This document shows positions 40,324 through 51,764 of a stretch of DNA of 64,000 nucleotides, in pieces (position 1 is the stretch's first letter; each line of letters begins with the position of its first letter). The position numbers and the translations under genes were made by a program. Location of the stretch: the NCBI RefSeq assembly GCF_903853455.1, contig NZ_CAINTR010000114.1, positions 62,001 to 126,000 of the forward strand, written 5' to 3'. The DNA comes from an uncultured Magnetospirillum sp. (GTDB lineage: Bacteria > Pseudomonadota > Alphaproteobacteria > Rhodospirillales > Magnetospirillaceae). Below the pieces are notes generated by a model. It had not been told where the DNA came from. It did not search any database and saw only the letters and a list, made by a program, of their open reading frames with translations.

Positions 40324-43300
40324 TTATACTGCCGCCACCGCCGCGCTGACCTCGACAAAGGCGCAGCGCACCGGCTCCAGCAGGGTTGCCGCCGTTTCCA
40401 GGTCTTCCTGGACGCAGGCGAGTTCCGCCTCCGCGCACAGTCGGGCGAAACGGAAAGCGCCCGCGCTATTGCCGGCGCCCTTGGCGGAGTGAGCCGCCTC
40501 GCGCGCCGCCACGACGTCACCGGCGGCCACGGCGTCGCTCAAGCCCTCGACCAGGGGCTGAGTGGTATCGATGAACAACTGCAACAACTCGCGAACCTCG
40601 TCCCCGATCTCGCCGAAGATCTGACGCATGGGGGCGAGATCGAGAATGGGAAGAGCCGGCTCGACAACGGCCGGCACCGCCGCCGGCCCGGACACCGCGG
40701 CCACACTCCCCTCCCCCCGTCCCGCGACTCCACGACGGCGACGCAGCGGGACCGCGTCCGGCAACAGCCGGCGAATGGTGGCGTCCAGTTGAACCAAATC
40801 GATAGGCTTGGCCAGGAATCCATCCATGCCGCAGTCCTGGCACCGTCGCGCCGTTCCCGACAGCGCGTCGGCGGTCAGGGCGACGATAGGCATATGGTGC
40901 CCGTTTCCGGTCTCCATCTCCATCTCGCGCACCCGCTGGGTCAGCTCGTAGCCGTCCATTTCCGGCATATGGCAATCGGTGAGCAGCAGGCCGTAATCCC
41001 GGATACGCATGCTCTCCCAGGCCTCGGCACCGTTGGCCACCACCTCGATGGCATAGCCCAGCCGCTCCATCAGATGGCGGATCACCACCTTGTTGGTGGG
41101 ATTGTCCTCGGCCACCAGGATCAGGGTCCCGGCGGCGGCGGCTTCCTCGATGGACGGCGGCGCCAAGGCTTCGTCGAGGCCGCCGGCCGCTCGCTCCTCC
41201 ACCTCAATGGCGCCGCGGCCGGCGGCGGCGGCCACGGTGCGCCACAAACTGCGCCGCCGCACCGGCTTGGGCAGCACCGCGAACAGGCCGCCGGTCTGGA
41301 TCTCGGCGGATGCCGCCGGGTAGATGTCATGGGAGGCGATCAGCACCACCCGCATCTGCGCATCGACTCCAGCGGCGGAGGTCAGGGCACCGGCCACTCC
41401 CAACCGGGTGCGGTAGTCCTGGCTGGCATCCATCAGCGCCACGTCGTAGCTCCACCCCGCCAAGGCCGCCGCCCGCGCCGCCGCCAGGGCGCCGTCGGCG
41501 GAAGCCACCACCGCCACCTGAGCGCCGAAATGGCCGAGATACTGGCGGATGCACTCCGCCGCCACCGGTCCTTCGGCCAGGACCAGCACGGCGATGCCCG
41601 ACAGGTCCGGCCCCGCTTCCGGTCCCGCCTCCTGCCCGTCCGCCATCGCCACCGCCAGAGGAACGGTGAACCAGAAACTCGAGCCAGCGCCCACATTGCT
41701 GGTAACGCCGATATCGCCATTCATGATCGCCACCAGACGGCGACAGATGGACAGGCCCAGGCCGGTACCGCCATAGCGCCGGGAAATGGTGATGTCGGCC
41801 TGCATGAAAGGCTCGAACAGGCGCGCCTGCTGCTCGGAATCCAGGCCGATACCGGTGTCGGTCACCGAGACTTGCAGCCGTAGCGGCCGTTCGCGGGCAT
41901 CCACCGCCTTGACGCTGATCCGCACATAGCCCTTGTCGGTGAACTTGATGGCGTTGCCGGCAAGGTTGGTGATGATCTGGCGCAACCGGACCGGATCGCC
42001 CCGCAACCGGTCGGGCAGGCTGGGGTCCACATAGGTGATGAGGCCGATTCCCTTTTCCTGGGCACGCAGCGTCAGCAATTCCGCCACGCTTTCGACCACT
42101 TCCACCACCGACAAATCGACGACCTCGAGTTCCAACTTGCCCGCCTCGATTTTCGAGAAGTCGAGAATGTCGTTGATGATCGTCAGCAGCGAGGTGGCCG
42201 AGTCGCGGATGACGCGGGCCATTTCCCGCTGCTCGGCCGGCAGCGGCATGTCTTCCAGCAGATGCGCCATGGTCAGCACCCCGTTCATGGGGGTGCGGAT
42301 TTCGTGGCTCATGGTGGCCAGGAACAGGGACTTGGCCTGACTGGCATCCTCGGCCATGCGCTTGGCCTCGGCCAGGGCCGCCTCCTCCTCCTTGTGGCGG
42401 GTGATGTCGGTGGACGACACGATCACCGCCGGCTCGCCGTCCATCTCGATCTGGGCCGCCGACAGCATGGCCCAGAATTCGTGGCCGTTGCTGGCCCGCA
42501 TCCGGCATTCGAAGCCGGGAACGAAGCCGCGCTGCCGCACCAGTTCCACCAGACGGGTTCGATTCTGGGGATCGGCGTAGCACGAGGACACCTTGGCGCC
42601 GATGGCCTCGGCCTCGGGCACCAGATACAGCTCCGACCAGCGGGGATTGACCGAGATGAGGACGCTGTCCGACACCCGCGAAATGGCCAGGGCCAGCGGC
42701 GAAGTGTCGAGGATGCGGCGCAGCCGCTCCTCGCTGGCCATCAGGGCTCGGCTGGATTCCTGCACCTTGGCCATGGCGTCGCGAAACACCACCAACTCGG
42801 CGGCCATGTCGGCGATCTCGTCGTTTCCCGACCGGACGATGGGGGCCTGGAAGTCGCCCCCGACAATGCGATGCATGGACTCCGCCAACCCGGTCAGGCG
42901 CGACACCAGGTTGCGTCCGAGGTACAGCCAGACGAACAGCAGCGGACCGAAGAAGGTCAGCATCGCCACCACCAGCAGGGTGTAGCGGCCGATGGAGACG
43001 GCCGCCTCGGTGCGGCGCTCGTTCTCGGCGGCGTCGGCCTCGGCGGCGGAGACCAGACGGCCCACCGCCGAAGAGGTGCGCGCCACCAGATCGCGCCCTT
43101 CGTCATTGGCGGCGGCCAGACGGACGATGGTCAGCATTTGCAGGCTGCGCAGTTCGAAGACGTTCTCCGGGCCGGTGCCCAGCGCCAGCACCCGGCGGGT
43201 CAACTCGCGCGCCCGCACCGCGCGGGGTCCGTCGCCGGCGGCATCGATCAGCATGGGCAGACGGCGCACCTGTTCCTCATAGGCGCTGCGCAACTCGCCG

Positions 43301-43926
43301 ACCTTCTCCAGGTCGGGGGCGACCACCGCTTCCCGCAGATAGTTGGAGGCCAGCACCACCACCGCCAGGGTCTGGTCGGTGGCCAGTCCCTCGGTGGAGC
43401 GGTGGATCTCCAGGTCGAGGCCGGTGATGGTCTCGGCCAGCGAACGGCCGCGCTCCGACAGTTGCAGCCGCTTGTCCACCAGGATGTTGCGGTCGACCAC
43501 ATTGTCGCCGAAGGCGGCGATCATGGAGCGGAGTTCCTCCACCCGGCCGGTGTCGGTGGCGGTGTCGGCCAACTGGTCGATCAGGGCCAGCAGACGCTCG
43601 GTCTGCTGTTGCAAGGCGACGAAATTGCTCTGGCGCTGGAACTGCGACTGCGACCCGTCCAGGGCCGGTGCCGCCGCCGCCAGCCGCGCCGTCGCTTCCG
43701 ACAGCTTCAGGGCATTGGACACGCTGGCCAGGTTGGTGCGGGTCACCGCCGCCAACAGGCGTTCGATCTCGGAATAGCTGAACCAGGTCATAATACCGGC
43801 GACCAGAATCATCCCCGCCACGGTTCCCACCGCCACCACCAGCTTGGCGCGAATGCCGAACCGCCAGCGGCCCGCCGCCCCCTTGTCAGCCAAAGCACTC
43901 CCCCCGATCATTCCCTCGGCACACAT
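40324..43926 (-). CDS. Hybrid sensor histidine kinase/response regulator with HPt
   Basis: A 1200-residue phosphorelay protein. Two membrane segments (about 28-50 and 316-340) flank a helical periplasmic sensor; HAMP (about 340-395), a PAS domain (about 405-520), HisKA with the His near 539 in MSHEIRTPMNG, HATPase with DTGIGLDS and GGTGLGLSICRRL follow. The first receiver-like region (about 770-890) has lost the usual acidic pocket. The second (about 925-1045) has Asp near 983 in LLLTDCHMPEMDG and Lys in FLAKPID. The C-terminal HPt carries His near 1145 in EAAHSAKGAGNS. The ligand and output are unknown. An alternative start is the ATG at 43911. It diverges from the TPR-radical SAM genes. Confidence 0.93.
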   Translation of the reverse strand: MCAEGMIGGSALADKGAAGRWRFGIRAKLVVAVGTVAGMILVAGIMTWFSYSEIERLLAAVTRTNLASVSNALKLSEATARLAAAAPALDGSQSQFQRQSNFVALQQQTERLLALIDQLADTATDTGRVEELRSMIAAFGDNVVDRNILVDKRLQLSERGRSLAETITGLDLEIHRSTEGLATDQTLAVVVLASNYLREAVVAPDLEKVGELRSAYEEQVRRLPMLIDAAGDGPRAVRARELTRRVLALGTGPENVFELRSLQMLTIVRLAAANDEGRDLVARTSSAVGRLVSAAEADAAENERRTEAAVSIGRYTLLVVAMLTFFGPLLFVWLYLGRNLVSRLTGLAESMHRIVGGDFQAPIVRSGNDEIADMAAELVVFRDAMAKVQESSRALMASEERLRRILDTSPLALAISRVSDSVLISVNPRWSELYLVPEAEAIGAKVSSCYADPQNRTRLVELVRQRGFVPGFECRMRASNGHEFWAMLSAAQIEMDGEPAVIVSSTDITRHKEEEAALAEAKRMAEDASQAKSLFLATMSHEIRTPMNGVLTMAHLLEDMPLPAEQREMARVIRDSATSLLTIINDILDFSKIEAGKLELEVVDLSVVEVVESVAELLTLRAQEKGIGLITYVDPSLPDRLRGDPVRLRQIITNLAGNAIKFTDKGYVRISVKAVDARERPLRLQVSVTDTGIGLDSEQQARLFEPFMQADITISRRYGGTGLGLSICRRLVAIMNGDIGVTSNVGAGSSFWFTVPLAVAMADGQEAGPEAGPDLSGIAVLVLAEGPVAAECIRQYLGHFGAQVAVVASADGALAAARAAALAGWSYDVALMDASQDYRTRLGVAGALTSAAGVDAQMRVVLIASHDIYPAASAEIQTGGLFAVLPKPVRRRSLWRTVAAAAGRGAIEVEERAAGGLDEALAPPSIEEAAAAGTLILVAEDNPTNKVVIRHLMERLGYAIEVVANGAEAWESMRIRDYGLLLTDCHMPEMDGYELTQRVREMEMETGNGHHMPIVALTADALSGTARRCQDCGMDGFLAKPIDLVQLDATIRRLLPDAVPLRRRRGVAGRGEGSVAAVSGPAAVPAVVEPALPILDLAPMRQIFGEIGDEVRELLQLFIDTTQPLVEGLSDAVAAGDVVAAREAAHSAKGAGNSAGAFRFARLCAEAELACVQEDLETAATLLEPVRCAFVEVSAAVAAV

Positions 43927-43987
43927 AATGCCTCAGCCGATCTCGTCATGGAAGTTAGACGGAATGCAGTGGTAGAATGCCGCCGTC

Positions 43988-45583
43988 ATGATGCCGCAAG
44001 CCGCCGTTTCCTCGCTTCTCACCGATGCCCTGGCGCACGAGCAAGCCGGTCGGCTGGCCGAGATGGAGCGTTGCGTGCGCGCCGCCTTGGCACAAGCCCC
44101 CGACCATCCCGGCGCGTTGTTCGCCCTGGCGCGGCTGGCCTTGCGGTCGGGCCGCTTCTCCGTCGCCCTGGATCTGACCGAGCGCGCCCTCGCCGCCGCC
44201 CCCCAAGCCCCCGAGTTGCATCGGACCAAGGGGCTGGCGCTGGCCAATATGGGACGCATCGAGGAGGGCTGCGCCGCCCTGTCCCACGCCCTGTCGCTGG
44301 CGCCGGACTGGGTGGATGCCGCCTGCGATCTCGGCCGCCTGCTGTTCCAGGCCGAGCGGCTGGACGAGATGCTGAGTCTGCTGGTTCCCTTCGACGCGCC
44401 GGCGGCGCATGTCCTGCGTGGTCAGGCCTTGATGGTGCTGGGCCGGTTGGACGAGGCGGCGGCAGGCTATGGCCGCGCCCTGGAATTGGCGCCCGGCCAG
44501 GACGACGCCATCTTCGGCCTGGCCTCGGTCCATATCGAGCGCGACCAGCCCCAGCCGGTGCTGGACCTGATCGAGCCGCGTATCGCCGCCGCCGGAGAGC
44601 GGAACCGCCTGCTTTACCTGCGGGCGGTGGCCAACGGCATGCTGGGCCGCGAAGCCGAGGCCGAAGCCGACACCAACACTCTGCGCGACGGTATGCTGGC
44701 TCAACTGGCGCGGCGCGGCAACCTGCCGGCGGAAGTGTTCGTCCAGCTCAGCCGCCGCTGCAACCTGCGCTGCACCATGTGCGGCCACGCGGTGTGGAAG
44801 GATCTGTCGGGCTTCATGTCCGACGAGGTCTTCGCCCGCGTTCTGTCGGAATGCGAAGCCGCCGGCATCCGCACCATGACCATCCTGGCGGCCCAGGGCG
44901 AGCCCTTCCTGCATCCCCGCGCCTTCGAGATGATGGAGGAGGCCGTCGCCAAGGGAATGGCGGTGACGGTGGTCACCAACGGCACCCCCTTCACCCCGGA
45001 GCGGATCGAGCGGCTGGCCGGCCTCGGTCTGGCCTGCCTGCAATTCTCCTTCGCCGGCTGGGACGCTCCCAGCTACGAAAGCGTCTATGTGGGCGCCAAG
45101 TTCGACCGGGCGGTAAAGACGCTGAAGGCCATCAACGCGGCGCTGAAACCCACCAACACCTCCTTCGTGGTCAAGGCGGTGGCGCCGGACAATTCCGAGG
45201 ATTACGTCACCCGCACCCGCGCCTTCCTCAATGGATTGGGCATCGACCGGGTCAACACCGTCGCTCCCAACAATTTCGGCGGCACCGTCCAATTGGGCCG
45301 CTTGTGGGAAAAGACCGGAATCTGGAGCTACCGCAATCTCGACAAGCATCGCCGCACCGTCTGTCGGGTGCTGATGCGCGCGGTCGGCGTCTATGTGGAC
45401 GGCTCGGTCACCGCCTGCGGCTGCTACGATTCCAACGCGGCGCTCCGCATCGGCGACATCATGAGCGAAAGCCTGTCCGAGATCCGCAACGGCCCCCGCT
45501 TCACCACCATCCTCGACGCCTTCCGGCACGGCGACGTCTCGGAAGTGCCGCTGTGCTCCAAATGCGACGACCCTTTCGGCTGA
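43988..45583 (+). CDS. TPR-radical SAM-SPASM protein A
   Basis: A 531-residue fusion. Residues about 10-230 are TPR-like helical repeats (for example ALFALARLALRSGRFSVALD and HRTKGLALANMGR). A radical SAM domain follows with C258, C262 and C265 in CNLRCTMC, ILAAQGEPFLHP and VVTNGTPF. The C-terminal SPASM region has Cys in CRVL, ACGCYDSN and CSKCDDPFG, enough to bind auxiliary clusters. Such proteins modify peptides or small molecules; the TPR part could dock a protein substrate. The next gene is a close paralogue 4 bases away. No precursor-peptide gene is adjacent. ATG at 43991 is an equally good start. Confidence 0.9.
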   Translation: MMPQAAVSSLLTDALAHEQAGRLAEMERCVRAALAQAPDHPGALFALARLALRSGRFSVALDLTERALAAAPQAPELHRTKGLALANMGRIEEGCAALSHALSLAPDWVDAACDLGRLLFQAERLDEMLSLLVPFDAPAAHVLRGQALMVLGRLDEAAAGYGRALELAPGQDDAIFGLASVHIERDQPQPVLDLIEPRIAAAGERNRLLYLRAVANGMLGREAEAEADTNTLRDGMLAQLARRGNLPAEVFVQLSRRCNLRCTMCGHAVWKDLSGFMSDEVFARVLSECEAAGIRTMTILAAQGEPFLHPRAFEMMEEAVAKGMAVTVVTNGTPFTPERIERLAGLGLACLQFSFAGWDAPSYESVYVGAKFDRAVKTLKAINAALKPTNTSFVVKAVAPDNSEDYVTRTRAFLNGLGIDRVNTVAPNNFGGTVQLGRLWEKTGIWSYRNLDKHRRTVCRVLMRAVGVYVDGSVTACGCYDSNAALRIGDIMSESLSEIRNGPRFTTILDAFRHGDVSEVPLCSKCDDPFG

Positions 45584-45587
45584 GGCC

Positions 45588-46892
45588 ATGAAACAGAAAA
45601 CAGCCAAACGCCCCGATCCCGCCGCCGTGATGGCCGAAGCCCAGCGCCTGATGGATTCCCAGATGCTGGCCGAAGCCATCGACGTCCTGGAGAGTCTGGC
45701 CGGCAATCCCGACGCCGACTACCGCCGGGCCGGGCTGCTGCTGGTGCTGAACCGTCCGGCCGAGGCGGAAACGCTCTACCGCTCCATTCTCGCCGTCGCG
45801 CCGGGCCACCTGGACACCATGGTCGGGCTGGCCGGCAGTCTGGTCGCCCAAAGCCGGCCCGAGGAGGCGCTGCCGCTGCTGGAACCGGCGGTGCGGGCCC
45901 AACCGAACTCGGGCCGTATCGCCTATCTGGCCGGAATCGCCCTCGACGAAGCCGGCCACGCCGCCGCCGCGGCCGCCCAACTGGCCAAGGCCCGCGCCCT
46001 GGTGATCGCGCCCTTGGAACGCCGCAAGCTGGTCCCCTACGAGATCTACGTCCAACTCAGCCGCCGCTGCAATCTCCACTGCACCATGTGCGGCTGGGAG
46101 ATCTGGAGGGACAATTCCGGCTTCATGGACACCCCGGTGTTCGAGCGGGTGATCGCCGAGGCCAAGGCCTGCGGCATCAAGCCCATGCACATCCTGGCCG
46201 GCCAGGGCGAGCCGTTCCTGCACCCCCAGATCTTCGAGATGCTGGAACGCGCCGTGGCCGAGGGCTTCGACGTGGGCATCGTCACCAACGGCACCCCGTT
46301 CACCCCCGAGCGGATCGAGCGTCTCGCCGGAATCGGCCTGGCCTATCTTCAGTTCTCCTTCGCCGGCTGGGACGCCCAAAGCTATGAAAGCGTCTATGTG
46401 GGCGCCAAGTTCGACCGCACCCTGGCCAACCTCAAGGCGGTGCACAAGGCGCTCAAGGGAACCAAAACCCGCTTCGCGGTCAAGGCGGTGGCGCTGGGCG
46501 ACTGGCAGGAGAACCTGCGCAAGACCAAGACCTTCCTCGCCGGCCACGGCATCGACGACGTGTGGACGGTGCCGGCCAACAATTTCGGCGGATCGGTCCA
46601 GGCCGGCAGCTTCCACGAAAAACACGGAATCTGGTCGCTGAAGGATGTCGACCACCACCGCCTGATGCCGTGCCGCCTGTTCCTCAAGGCCGTCGGCGTG
46701 TTCTGCGACGGGACCGTCACCGCTTGCGGCTGTTACGATTCCAACGCCCAGCTTCGCCTCGGCAACATCATGGAACAGGGACTGGCCGAGATTCGCGACG
46801 GCGAGACCTACCGCCGCATCCTCGACGGCTTTCGCCACGGCGACGTCAAGGACGTGCCCATGTGCGGCAAGTGCGACGACCCGTTCGGGTAA
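45588..46892 (+). CDS. TPR-radical SAM-SPASM protein B
   Basis: A 434-residue paralogue of the preceding protein. Its TPR region is shorter (about 15-140). Radical SAM cysteines are C161, C165 and C168 in CNLHCTMC; ILAGQGEPFLHP, VTNGTPFTPERIERLAG and QFSFAGWD are shared almost word for word with protein A. The SPASM part again has CRLF, ACGCYDSN and CGKCDDPFG at the very end. The pair arose by tandem duplication and is probably cotranslated. Both keep all cluster cysteines, so both should be active, possibly on different substrates or as a heteromer. It converges on a sensor kinase gene with no gap. Confidence 0.9.
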   Translation: MKQKTAKRPDPAAVMAEAQRLMDSQMLAEAIDVLESLAGNPDADYRRAGLLLVLNRPAEAETLYRSILAVAPGHLDTMVGLAGSLVAQSRPEEALPLLEPAVRAQPNSGRIAYLAGIALDEAGHAAAAAAQLAKARALVIAPLERRKLVPYEIYVQLSRRCNLHCTMCGWEIWRDNSGFMDTPVFERVIAEAKACGIKPMHILAGQGEPFLHPQIFEMLERAVAEGFDVGIVTNGTPFTPERIERLAGIGLAYLQFSFAGWDAQSYESVYVGAKFDRTLANLKAVHKALKGTKTRFAVKAVALGDWQENLRKTKTFLAGHGIDDVWTVPANNFGGSVQAGSFHEKHGIWSLKDVDHHRLMPCRLFLKAVGVFCDGTVTACGCYDSNAQLRLGNIMEQGLAEIRDGETYRRILDGFRHGDVKDVPMCGKCDDPFG

Positions 46893-49022
46893 CTACTCCA
46901 CCCTGGGCAGGGTGAAGCGGAAGGTCGAACCGCCGACGCCATCGGACTCGACCCAGATCCGCCCCCGCGCCGCCTCGACGATGCGGCGCGCCACCGCCAG
47001 GCCGATGCCGGTGCCGGAGTGGTCCGAATGCTTCTTCAGCCGTTCCAGCGGAATGAAAATTCGCTCGAAATTGCTGGAATCGATGCCGATGCCGTTGTCG
47101 GCGAAACGGAACAGCCAGAACTTGCCCTCGGCCTCCACCGTCACCTTCAGGCCGAGCGGCCGCTCCGGGTGGCGGAATTGGACCGCGTTCTCCACCAGAA
47201 TCTTGAACAGGTCGTCGAGATGCTGCTGGGTGACGCCGACCTTCGGCAGGTCATCCTTGTCCATCCGCGAAATGGCTCCGGGAGCACGCATCTTGTATCG
47301 CTCCACCGCGCCGTTCAAAGCCCGGTTGGTCGATCCCGGCGGTCCCTCGGCCGGCCGGCGCTCGACCGCCAGATAGGTTTGGACATCGCGCAGCAATCCG
47401 ATCAGACGGGCGGAGGCCTCGACGATCCGCTCCGACGGCTCGCGGTCGGCGGATGCCGTACCGTCGCCCTGGCGCTGGAGCAGGATCTGGGCCTGCAACC
47501 GCATCTGCCGCGCCGGCTCCTGAAGATGGTGGGCCAGCACGAAGGAAAAGCGCTCCAGGTCGGCGCTGTAATGGGCCACGTCCGCATAGGCGGCGGTCAG
47601 CGCGGCGCGGGCTTCTTCCTCCTGGGTGATGTCGCGCTGGACGCCGACCCAGTGGGTGATCGCCCCCCCCCCATTCCGCACCGGAGTGAGGGAGACCTGA
47701 TTCCAGAACGGGGCCCCGTCGGCCCGCATGTTCCGCAGCTTGACCGTGACCGCAGTCCCCTCGGTCAAGGCGTCGCGGACGGCGTTCAACTCGTCCTGAC
47801 CGGGATCGTCCACGTGCAGGAAACGGGCGTTGCGCCCAATCGCCTGACGGGCGCTGTAGCCGGTGATGCGCTCGAAAGCGGGATTGACGTAGAGCAGCGG
47901 CAAATCGGGGAGACTGGCGTCGGCGATGGTGACACCGTTGGAGACGTTGGCCAGGACCAGATCGCTGAGACGCAGCCGCGCCTCGTCGCGCGCCCGTTTG
48001 GCCAAGGTGCGCACCAGCACCACCGTCAACCCCAGCACCGCCAGGATCACCAGCGCCACCGGCCAACCGATCTGCTCGGCATTGCTGCGCCAGTTGGCCA
48101 AGGCCTTGTCGATGGGAAGGCCGACGCTGATCACCAGCGGCCACGACAAGGTGGCGCGATAACTGGTGATCCGTCGGACGCCATCGTCGTCCAGGTCGAT
48201 GAAGGTCCCCATCTCCGCCGTCTTGAGATGACGCGCGAACAGCGGCAGATCGACGGTGTTGGTTCCGGGAGCCGCCGAGGAGGATCGCGCCCCCGCCAGC
48301 AGAACCCCGTCGAACCGCCAGAGATGGACCTGCGCCCCGGTTTCGGCCTCGATGGCGTCGAAACCGCCGTTGAAATGCTCCGGGTTGATGGCCGCCACCA
48401 CCAACGCGGCGACGGATCCATCGGCATTGGTCACGGCGCGGCTGACCGGGATCAGGCTTTGCCCCGCCGCCTTGCCCATGCTGCCCATGTATCGCCCCTC
48501 GACCGGCAGGCCGAACAGCAGGGGGCGTGGCAGGCGGCGATGCTCGTCGATCAGCCCGGCCACATCCATGCGACCGCCGGCGACGATTCCGGCACTGTCA
48601 AACAGCACCCGCCCATCGGCCGCCACCACCAGAACCTGCCGCAGATGGGGCGTGAACACCAGACGCTGGGTCACCGCGTCGGCCAGGTCGATCTCGCCGT
48701 GATCCAGTCCGGCCTTGCGGGCCAAGTCGGCCACCGAGGCCAATGTCACGTCGATGGAATTGATGGAGCGCGCCACCGCGTCGGTCAGCGGCCGGGCCAG
48801 ACTGCCGGTGACGTTCTGGGCGGCGATGATCGCCTCCTGCCGGCCGGCCCACAGCGCCGCTCCGGTGGCGACGGCCACCGCCAGGGCGACGCCGACGCCA
48901 AACACCGCCACCAGCCGCACCAGGGCGGTGGAGTAAAGCGGCTGCACCGGTACGTTGCCCAAAACAGGGGGATCGACCAGCCTCGCCCGCGACGGGGCGT
49001 CTGTATTCTGCCTTCCAAGCAT
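46893..49022 (-). CDS. Sensor histidine kinase with LOV-like PAS domain
   Basis: A 709-residue kinase. A membrane segment near residues 35-55, a periplasmic dCache-like sensor (about 60-320) and a second membrane segment near 330-350 precede a PAS domain. That PAS has GRNARFLHVDDPGQ, the LOV signature position, but Ala replaces the photoactive Cys of NCRFLQ. The HisKA-like helix has His in LAHHLQEPARQ, a bacteriophytochrome-type HWE/HisKA_3 arrangement is not evident, and the HATPase has NAVQFRH, DNGIGI and GTGIGLAVARRI. The ATG at 49022 avoids overlap with the divergent binding-protein gene; a longer frame reaches 49082. Confidence 0.9.
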   Translation of the reverse strand: MLGRQNTDAPSRARLVDPPVLGNVPVQPLYSTALVRLVAVFGVGVALAVAVATGAALWAGRQEAIIAAQNVTGSLARPLTDAVARSINSIDVTLASVADLARKAGLDHGEIDLADAVTQRLVFTPHLRQVLVVAADGRVLFDSAGIVAGGRMDVAGLIDEHRRLPRPLLFGLPVEGRYMGSMGKAAGQSLIPVSRAVTNADGSVAALVVAAINPEHFNGGFDAIEAETGAQVHLWRFDGVLLAGARSSSAAPGTNTVDLPLFARHLKTAEMGTFIDLDDDGVRRITSYRATLSWPLVISVGLPIDKALANWRSNAEQIGWPVALVILAVLGLTVVLVRTLAKRARDEARLRLSDLVLANVSNGVTIADASLPDLPLLYVNPAFERITGYSARQAIGRNARFLHVDDPGQDELNAVRDALTEGTAVTVKLRNMRADGAPFWNQVSLTPVRNGGGAITHWVGVQRDITQEEEARAALTAAYADVAHYSADLERFSFVLAHHLQEPARQMRLQAQILLQRQGDGTASADREPSERIVEASARLIGLLRDVQTYLAVERRPAEGPPGSTNRALNGAVERYKMRAPGAISRMDKDDLPKVGVTQQHLDDLFKILVENAVQFRHPERPLGLKVTVEAEGKFWLFRFADNGIGIDSSNFERIFIPLERLKKHSDHSGTGIGLAVARRIVEAARGRIWVESDGVGGSTFRFTLPRVE

Positions 49023-49066
49023 GACCCAGATGCAATAGCATATTACCTCCGTATTGGGAGGGAAAT

Positions 49067-49861
49067 ATGAAGCGGATCGCAACCGTCGCCGTTATTTTGC
49101 TGGCGATCTCCACCGCCGCCATGGCCCAGCCCGGCCCAGGCCGATTGGAGCGGGTCCGCAAGGCCGGAGAAGTCCGCGTCTGCATCTGGCCCGACTACTA
49201 CTCGATCTCGTACCGCAATACCCGCACCGGGCAATTGGAAGGCGTCGATATTGACCTGGCGCGGGAATTGGCCAAGGACCTGGGGGTTCAGGTCCGCTTC
49301 GTCGACAGTTCGTTCAAGACCATGATCGACGACCTGCTGACCGACCGCTGCGACGTGTCCATGCATGGTGTCGCCGTCACGCCGGCGCGGCAAGAAAAGC
49401 TGGTCTTCACCCATCCCCATCTGCGCAGCGGCATCTACGCCATCACCACCAAGACTCATCCCACCGTCAAGGATTGGGACGACATCGACCGGGACGGCGT
49501 CGTGGTCGCCGCCGCCAGCGGCACCTACATGGTCGACGTCATGAAAGCCGAACTGAAGCACGCCAAGCTGGCGGAAGTGGCGACCCCCGAGGCGCGCGAG
49601 CAGGAGGTCATGAGCGGTCGCGCCGACCTGTTCGTCACCGACTACCCCTACAGCCGCAAGATGCTGGCCCGTCACGACTGGGCCAAACTGCTGGCGCCGC
49701 CGACCCCGCTGGCCCCCAACGCCTATGCCTATGCCATGGCGCCGGGCGACGCCGAGTGGCTGCGCGTCATGGATGCCTTCGTCGCCCGCGCCAAGAACGA
49801 CGGGCGTCTGCTTGCCGCCGCCCAGGCCAACGGGCTGGAGGCCATCGTCGAGTTGAAGTGA
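49067..49861 (+). CDS. Periplasmic amino acid-type solute-binding protein
   Basis: A 264-residue family 3 solute-binding protein. Residues 1-20 are a Sec signal ending AMAQ; the mature part has VCIWPDYYSISYRN, EGVDIDLARELAKDLG, and DVSMHGVAVTPARQEK, which place it in the polar amino acid binding group. It lacks neighbouring permease or ATPase genes. Similar stand-alone proteins can feed sensor kinases; the kinase encoded divergently 45 bases away has a periplasmic domain, so a sensory role is possible but unproven. Confidence 0.88.
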   Translation: MKRIATVAVILLAISTAAMAQPGPGRLERVRKAGEVRVCIWPDYYSISYRNTRTGQLEGVDIDLARELAKDLGVQVRFVDSSFKTMIDDLLTDRCDVSMHGVAVTPARQEKLVFTHPHLRSGIYAITTKTHPTVKDWDDIDRDGVVVAAASGTYMVDVMKAELKHAKLAEVATPEAREQEVMSGRADLFVTDYPYSRKMLARHDWAKLLAPPTPLAPNAYAYAMAPGDAEWLRVMDAFVARAKNDGRLLAAAQANGLEAIVELK

Positions 49862-49862
49862 G

Positions 49863-50765
49863 TTACGCCGCCACCCCGGCGGCCTGAAGGCGGCCGACCA
49901 GTTCGGCATCCTTGCCGACGGGCAGGTCCGTCAGCGGCGGCCGCACTCGCCGCCAGCAGTCGTCCCCCAACCGCCGGGCGGTGATCGCCTTCAACGCCGC
50001 GATCAGCGGCACCCCTTCCATCACGGCGCGGAAGCCCTCCAGCCCCTTCTGCAAGGCCTCGGCCTCCGGCTGCCGCCAGCGCCGCACCAGATCCAGCATG
50101 GCGGCGCCGTGAATATTGGCGTTGGCGCTGATGCAGCCCGCCCCGCCCGCCCGCATCACCGGTAGGATCAGGCGCTCGGTGCCGGCGAACACCTTGAAGC
50201 CGGGAAAGCGCCGGCACATGGCCTCCATATTGGCCAAATCGCCCGAGGAATCCTTGACGCCGACGACGATGCCGGGATAGGCGGCGAGCAGGCGTTCGAT
50301 CAGGTCGAGGGTGATGGGGATCTGGCTCTGCTGCGGGAAATGGTAGAGATAGACCCGCAGGCGGGAATCGCCCACCCGCTCGATGGTCTCGGCGAAGGAG
50401 CGGAACAGCCCATCCTCGGACACCGTCTTGTAGTAGAAGGGCGGCAGCATCAGCACGCCGCCGCAGCCGCGCTTGACCGCCTGGGCCGACAGCCGCACCG
50501 AATCCGACAGGGCGCAACAGCCGGTCCCCGGCATCATGCGGCCGGGGTCCAGCCCGGCCTCCACCAGGGCGTCGAGCAGCACGATCTTCTCATCGACCCC
50601 CAGGGAATTGCCTTCGCTGGTGGTGCCGAACGGCGCCAGCCCCAGCCCCTGATCCATCAAGATCCGCGCCAGGGCCACGAACCGCACCGGGTCGGGCGTC
50701 AGATCGTCACGGAATGGCGTGAGGATCGGCGCCAGCACGCCGTCGAGACCGGATTGCGAGGTCAT
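49863..50765 (-). CDS. Dihydrodipicolinate synthase/N-acetylneuraminate lyase family protein
   Basis: A 300-residue class I aldolase family member. GVLAPILTPF at the start, GTTSEGNSL, the Tyr in VYLYHFPQQ, and the Schiff-base Lys in VGVKDSSGD are the family's signature and active-site elements. GTTSEGNS rather than GTTGE marks it as a catabolic paralogue instead of biosynthetic DapA. The reaction is an aldol cleavage or dehydration of a keto acid; the substrate is unknown. The ATG at 50765 is chosen; the frame beyond it overlaps the divergent AEC gene. Confidence 0.88.
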   Translation of the reverse strand: MTSQSGLDGVLAPILTPFRDDLTPDPVRFVALARILMDQGLGLAPFGTTSEGNSLGVDEKIVLLDALVEAGLDPGRMMPGTGCCALSDSVRLSAQAVKRGCGGVLMLPPFYYKTVSEDGLFRSFAETIERVGDSRLRVYLYHFPQQSQIPITLDLIERLLAAYPGIVVGVKDSSGDLANMEAMCRRFPGFKVFAGTERLILPVMRAGGAGCISANANIHGAAMLDLVRRWRQPEAEALQKGLEGFRAVMEGVPLIAALKAITARRLGDDCWRRVRPPLTDLPVGKDAELVGRLQAAGVAA

Positions 50766-50837
50766 GCCAAATTTGCCCTTTCGCCGGGGGTGGTGCCGCG
50801 TCACTCTACACATGATAACCCATGCCGAGGTGGCGGA

Positions 50838-51764
50838 GTGACAGGTTTGCCGTTCGATACCACCCTGGCGGTCAAGTTGGTGCCGCTGTACCTGCTGGTC
50901 GCCATCGGCTTCGCGCTGGGACGGCTGTTCGACGTGAAGGGCCAGGACCTGGGCAAGCTGGCGCTGTATGTGCTGTCGCCGGCCGTGGTCTTCAAGGGCT
51001 TCGTCACCGCCAGCCTGCACGGCGCGCTGCTGGTGCTGCCCTTCGCGGTATTCGGGCTGTGCAGCCTGGTGGCGCTGGGTATGCAGCCGGTGGCCGGGCG
51101 GTTCTGGCACGACGGCCGCGAACGCATCGCCAGCTTCGCCTCGGGGACCGGCAATACCGGCTTTTTCGGCATTCCGGCCTGCCTGTCGCTGATCGGGCCG
51201 GAGGCCTTGCCCTTCGTGGTGATGGTGTCGTTTGGAGCCACCTTCTATGAGAATTCGGTGGGGTTCTTCACCGTCGCCCGCTCGGAGGCCTCGGTGGGCG
51301 GCGCCCTGCTCCGGGTACTGAAATATCCCGGACTGCATGCCTGCTGGCTGGGGGCCTTGCTCAATCTCACCGGCACCGCGGTGCCACCGCCGGTCATGCA
51401 GACGGTGGAGATCGTCAGCGGCGGCTTCGTGCCGGTGGGAATGATGATCGTCGGCCTGGGACTGTCCCAGATCCACCGCCTTCGCCTCGACCTGGGCTTC
51501 ATCGCCTTCACCTTCCTGGCCAAGTTCGCGGTGTGGCCGGCACTGGCGCTCGCCTTCATCTGGGTCGATACGACCGGGCTGCACGCCTTCGGCCGCGTCG
51601 CCCATCAGGTGATGCTGATCGAATCGCTGACGCCCATGGCGGCGGTGACGGTGGTTCACGCCACCCTGCGCAACATCCATCCCGATCGCGCCGCCATCGC
51701 GGTGGCGCTCAGCACCCTGTTCGCCCTGATCTGGCTACCATTCGTTTTTACCCTCGCCTCATGA
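50838..51764 (+). CDS. AEC family transporter (auxin efflux carrier-like)
   Basis: A 308-residue membrane protein with about ten helices. FGLG-type region here reads GNTGFFGIPACLSLIG, and VPVGMMIVGLGLS near 200 is the second inverted-repeat marker of the AEC family. Members move malonate, malate or other organic acids. It starts with a GTG at 50838. It diverges from the DapA-like gene, so it could carry a related keto acid, which is only an inference from position. Confidence 0.85.
   Translation: MTGLPFDTTLAVKLVPLYLLVAIGFALGRLFDVKGQDLGKLALYVLSPAVVFKGFVTASLHGALLVLPFAVFGLCSLVALGMQPVAGRFWHDGRERIASFASGTGNTGFFGIPACLSLIGPEALPFVVMVSFGATFYENSVGFFTVARSEASVGGALLRVLKYPGLHACWLGALLNLTGTAVPPPVMQTVEIVSGGFVPVGMMIVGLGLSQIHRLRLDLGFIAFTFLAKFAVWPALALAFIWVDTTGLHAFGRVAHQVMLIESLTPMAAVTVVHATLRNIHPDRAAIAVALSTLFALIWLPFVFTLAS

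Follow-up and report, generated by a model that had tools for sequence, protein, structure and literature searches.

Radical S-adenosylmethionine (SAM) enzymes of the twitch and SPASM types mostly lack an assigned substrate, and the main clue to what they act on is the set of genes around them. This question is raised by two adjacent genes, here called A and B, in a 64,000-nucleotide stretch of an uncultured Magnetospirillum sp. (contig NZ_CAINTR010000114.1, positions 62,001 to 126,000; hereafter the window), each of which joins tetratricopeptide repeats (TPR) to a radical SAM core. What do these proteins act on, and in which pathway do they work? An original prediction, made from the letters of the window, treated the tandem pair as the system and the sensor kinases on either side of it as mere flanks. 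We found that one of these kinases, a divergently transcribed TorS-like hybrid kinase, is the most conserved partner of A and B. We tentatively propose that both are twitch-type radical enzymes working in its pathway.

Genes A and B encode intact TPR-radical SAM proteins

The two genes lie head to tail as follows.

43988..45583, plus strand: gene A, with about seven TPR repeats (residues 1-242), a radical SAM core and a twitch-type SPASM-family domain, 531 amino acids (open reading frame, Pfam, AlphaFold2 model, clade A)
45588..46892, plus strand: gene B, with four TPR repeats (residues 11-145), a radical SAM core and a twitch-type SPASM-family domain, 434 amino acids (open reading frame, Pfam, AlphaFold2 model, clade B)

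A and B are paralogues; both open reading frames (ORFs) are intact and are separated by a gap of 4 bases, as originally described. TPR, Radical_SAM and SPASM domains were each matched in both proteins above the curated Pfam cut-offs (59 and 64 bits against 29.5 for PF04055, Radical_SAM; PF13186 for SPASM), which bears out the shared architecture that had been proposed, and the CxxxCxxC motif that defines the radical SAM superfamily lies inside the Radical_SAM domain of A and of B. The quoted motifs (CNLRCTMC / CNLHCTMC, ACGCYDSN and CSKCDDPFG / CGKCDDPFG) are present as given. The prediction had also held all cluster cysteines to be intact, and had named their loss in homologues as the sign of an error. 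By aligning homologues, we found that the radical-cluster residues C161, C165 and C168 (B numbering) and the C-terminal residues C362, C380, C382, C426 and C429 are cysteine in all 19 sequences, and that the GQGEP-type and other radical SAM core motifs are conserved as well. Since the cysteines and the core are invariant, both A and B are expected to be active. Mean conservation was 0.69 in the TPR part against 0.78 and 0.82 in the core, which favours catalysis over a scaffold role.

Both AlphaFold2 models are of good overall confidence. The model of B (mean predicted local distance difference test score, pLDDT, 82.5; predicted template modelling score, pTM, 0.80) has eight N-terminal TPR helices, that is four repeats, up to residue 145, and that of A (mean pLDDT 82.3) has 14 helices, or seven repeats, up to residue 242. 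The difference in TPR length noticed in the sequence is thus also seen in the predicted folds.

The C-terminal domains fit a single-cluster twitch type

A SPASM domain is defined by the seven-cysteine motif CX9-15GX4C-gap-CX2CX5CX3C-gap-C and holds two auxiliary clusters (PMC6231123), whereas twitch is a truncated SPASM form with one auxiliary cluster (PMC6231123; PMC9012708), which in BtrN is ligated by four cysteines (PMC9012708). The C-termini of A and B read CX12GX4C, with an extra cysteine two residues on, then CX2C and the end of the protein, which makes five conserved cysteines; the CX5CX3C-gap-C part is absent. This cysteine count rules out a strict two-cluster SPASM reading, and because the remaining motif cysteines are missing a single auxiliary cluster would be expected. 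The four motif cysteines and C382 are all invariant and the fold resembles BtrN and SkfB, so that both domains fit the twitch type in their predicted cluster content. The original label of SPASM therefore holds as a Pfam match but not in its two-cluster sense. It had also been argued that known SPASM enzymes modify peptides or proteins. This does not carry over, as twitch enzymes and the nearest structures include small-molecule enzymes (BtrN, MoaA and BlsE); since both peptides and small molecules are substrates of twitch and SPASM enzymes, the domain alone is no pointer to a peptide.

In structure comparisons, the nearest folds to the core of B were BlsE, SuiB, BtrN, anSME, SkfB and CteB, all below 20% identity, so that the fold does not decide the chemistry of B. 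BtrN, which is among the top folds for B (Z 16.6, root mean square deviation 3.3, 226 residues), shares with MoaA, SkfB, A and B a radical SAM core followed by a C-terminal domain too poor in cysteines for a second auxiliary cluster; however, identity to A and B is only about 15-18%, these three enzymes have no TPR, and their gene context differs. The SPASM peptide maturases SuiB, CteB, anSME and PqqE have, like A and B, a Pfam SPASM domain over the cut-off and the same core fold (Z 16-17.6), and SuiB and CteB also carry an extra N-terminal domain, the place of which is taken in A and B by the TPR. Unlike these maturases, A and B lack the seven-cysteine motif and have no precursor peptide nearby. 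BlsE, a cytosylglucuronate decarboxylase, was the top match both in Foldseek and by sequence in the PDB (B residues 152-285), but it is about 19% identical over the structural alignment, has no TPR and belongs to an antibiotic pathway. Among the structural matches of the TPR superhelices are OGT and SPINDLY.

No NCBIfam radical SAM model came near its cut-off for A or B: the best for both, TIGR04317 (tungsten-cofactor oxidoreductase radical SAM maturase), scored 79.7 and 93.1 bits against 380. A match to the anti-phage viperin family (pVip; 38-47 bits) is confined to some 90-150 residues in the radical SAM core, at a level that many radical SAM proteins would reach. A literature search found no paper on this TPR-radical SAM family. 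The original view of A and B as intact TPR-radical SAM enzymes is supported, and by these scores they are of no named family. The parts (radical SAM, twitch, TPR and TorS-like kinase) are all known, but for their combination, a twitch enzyme fused to TPR and accompanied by a retained divergent hybrid kinase, we found no named family.

A and B form a narrow family and are rarely kept together

By family alignment, A or B occurs in 31 of the 55 genomes of the window's family. B is present in 27 of these 31 and A in six; both are found only in the window's genome (G000) and in G001, and four genomes have A only. This rules out the A-B pair as a conserved two-enzyme unit and does not support the original idea that the tandem pair itself is the system. 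In an unrooted tree A and B form two separate clades with full support; the outgroup-rooted tree has long branches, which weaken it as a guide to the order of the A/B duplication. In G011, B is preceded by a sequence that closely matches the one upstream of A in the window, which would suit a clean loss of A, or its insertion.

In the order sample there was one more strong member, G463, which falls with A at the end of a long branch; two further TPR-radical SAM matches were weak and distant. Among 385 genomes of the class sample, searched to an E limit of 1e-40, only the window's own genome matched. Of 398 genomes in the phylum sample (E limit 1e-30) there were three weak matches only, none of which covers the TPR part, and there were no plasmid-borne relatives at E 1e-15. 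The family is therefore narrow in distribution. Its carriers include cultured spirilla such as Paramagnetospirillum, and the genomes that naturally have A only, B only, both or neither make a ready comparison set.

A separate TPR and radical SAM family, with about 29% core identity, occurs in another family of the order (L161 7048-8946 and L162 3446-5443), and in L162 a second TPR protein adjoins the TPR-radical SAM gene. Because of these fusions to more distant radical SAM proteins, the TPR-radical SAM fusion is not unique to A and B. One locus (L048), from a record titled 'Stygiobacter sp.', groups tightly with Magnetospirillum sulfuroxidans in the tree, and the organism name of that record looks wrong.

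A divergent TorS-like kinase is the most conserved partner

The kinase and the region that separates it from A are the following.

40324..43926, minus strand: hybrid histidine kinase with a TorS-like sensor, 1200 amino acids (Pfam and NCBIfam; divergent from A and B, conserved partner)
43927..43987, no strand: intergenic region of 61 bp between the divergent start codons (alignment, and read from sequence)

The Pfam domain order of this membrane sensor kinase is TorS_sensor_domain-HAMP-PAS-HisKA-HATPase-receiver-Hpt. Its sensor domain, PF21689, scored 44.7 bits against a cut-off of 27, while its best NCBIfam match, TorS (TIGR02956), scored 523.7 bits against 676.5, which places the protein outside that family. 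It shares the N-terminal TorS_sensor_domain with TorS hybrid kinases, but it has a PAS domain and no torT or torR was recognised adjoining it.

Every one of the 31 genomes that carry A or B has an orthologue of this kinase, that of G023 being shortened in its sensor part, compared to two of the 24 genomes without them (G448 and G455; Fisher 2e-13, uncorrected for relatedness). Moreover, in 25 of the 27 genomes with B it lies directly next to B, or to the A-B pair, in divergent orientation. The exceptions are G025, where about 15 kb of the same contig separate it from B, and G023, where two genes stand between B and the kinase, one for an iron-containing alcohol dehydrogenase and one for a protein reading as PAS-GGDEF-EAL. 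The four A-only genomes retain the kinase, unlinked to A. Together these data point to the left-hand kinase as the gene most consistently kept with A and B rather than a mere flank. A sensor kinase kept beside the enzyme across the genera of one family offers a concrete handle on the target.

In the minus-strand direction, that of the kinase, the intergenic region contains TTCCAT-17 bp-CATTAT, and neither of these -35/-10-like boxes varies among 10 aligned genomes from the window's genus. These boxes come from the alignment, and a simple promoter scan did not list them. In the direction of A, a TAGAAT-like -10 can be read from the sequence.

The G023 orthologue (L143 8534-11440) lacks most of the periplasmic sensor domain and keeps the HAMP, PAS, kinase, receiver and Hpt parts. 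In G020, which has neither A nor B, there is a partial kinase match (L134 6831-9935), with 59% identity in the kinase half, 39% in the N-terminal part and a gap around the PAS domain.

A possible role in the kinase pathway and its alternatives

Taking these observations together, we suggest, at somewhat less than even chances, that A and B are twitch-type SAM-dependent radical enzymes whose TPR docks a protein and which are active in the pathway of the TorS-like kinase encoded divergently from them. Each would combine a radical SAM core with one Cys4-type auxiliary cluster, and the N-terminal TPR superhelix would take the place of the leader-binding domain of peptide-modifying relatives. The docked protein would most likely be a component of the kinase pathway or its target. 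A 5'-deoxyadenosyl radical may then take a hydrogen atom from this protein or from a bound small molecule, with the auxiliary cluster accepting the second electron, and the oxidised or cross-linked product would either tune signalling or be the output of the pathway. The direction could be either, with the enzyme acting on the kinase pathway or the pathway controlling the enzyme. If the link to the kinase is functional, radical SAM chemistry would be joined to two-component signalling. A narrower form, in which the enzyme covalently modifies the hybrid kinase itself or makes the ligand that it senses, with the TPR as docking part, seems to us quite improbable.

Several observations weigh against a role in the kinase pathway. 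The co-occurrence lies entirely within one bacterial family and is thus confounded by descent. B is strongly linked to the kinase and A less so, and either side of the link can occur alone: neither A nor B accompanies the intact kinase of G448 and G455, and in G463, a genome from outside the family, there is an A-like gene but no full-length orthologue of the kinase. The kinase shows neither a conserved cysteine cluster that lacks an explanation nor an extra domain to single it out as a substrate, and there is no direct linkage to a gene for a response regulator or a substrate. In addition, the lower conservation of the TPR part comes with no obvious fixed docking surface.

Modification of a protein or of a glycan by A and B, as first suggested, is an inference. 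A less likely but serious alternative is that the substrate of A and B is a sugar or glycan, such as that of a surface polysaccharide or of flagellin; the TPR would then dock a glycosyltransferase or a glycoprotein, and the kinase would only time expression. This reading is suggested by BlsE as best match in sequence and fold, by the likeness of the TPR superhelices to OGT and SPINDLY, and by the nearest relatives without TPR that were examined (27-32% identity), the surroundings of which read as surface-polysaccharide and sugar genes. However, those gene roles were assigned by eye and not by hidden Markov model, a core at about 30% identity does not fix the chemistry, and none of the conserved neighbours of A or B at the loci examined could be recognised as a glycosyltransferase, sugar-nucleotide or flagellin gene. 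We consider it unlikely that A and B are maturases of the kind that act on ribosomally synthesized and post-translationally modified peptides (RiPPs), or on proteins, with a substrate encoded elsewhere in the genome and the kinase adjacency as old synteny only. G463, which has the enzyme without the kinase, would agree with this, but genomes with A retain the kinase even where the two are unlinked, while other flanking genes are not kept. We also compared small ORFs within about 4 kb of the genes between loci of the window's genus and those of other genera. Outside known genes, seven had cross-genus matches, and only the two around the 5' end of the kinase matched more than one locus; no precursor-type small ORF was broadly conserved across genera within this distance of A or B. 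This speaks against a RiPP maturase with an adjacent precursor and agrees with the original observation that no precursor peptide, protease or exporter adjoins the pair. The kinase link and the TPR domain would also suit a non-catalytic regulator or scaffold, such as an iron-sulfur- or SAM-responsive partner of the kinase, but every SAM-cluster cysteine and the core motifs, the GQGEP-type among them, are conserved, and conservation is greater in the core than in the TPR, as it should be in an enzyme, which leaves this alternative highly improbable.

Other neighbouring genes

On the other side of B lies a second kinase.

46893..49022, minus strand: second sensor kinase with dCache-like, PAS and HATPase parts (Pfam and neighbourhood table; convergent with B, not a core part)

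This kinase adjoins B only in the window's genus. With a divergent solute-binding protein (SBP_bac_3) it makes up a unit beside B (46893-49861), and both were ruled out as partners since they are linked to B only in that genus. On the side of the TorS-like kinase, the genes for FGase, GapR, FolB, HPPK and phosphofructokinase change between genera and are not kept in the sister genus.

A DHDPS-family gene (c4) is a frequent neighbour, but it was rejected as a partner because it is missing from several loci that keep the kinase. In the window, the 605-residue minus-strand ORF at 49863-51680 is probably a DHDPS-family gene of about 300 amino acids (residues 313-596 match PF00701), and its upstream half is an ORF antisense to a plus-strand hydrophobic permease-like gene; in relatives, the DHDPS-family and permease-like genes stand as separate divergent genes.

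A flagellar rod-like gene (c50) beside A was likewise set aside, being found only in G004, G006 and G015, as were methyl-accepting chemotaxis and PilZ neighbours, which occur in G025 only. At that locus (L047 6858-13531), B lies between two PilZ-bearing methyl-accepting chemotaxis proteins, one of them with a hemerythrin domain.
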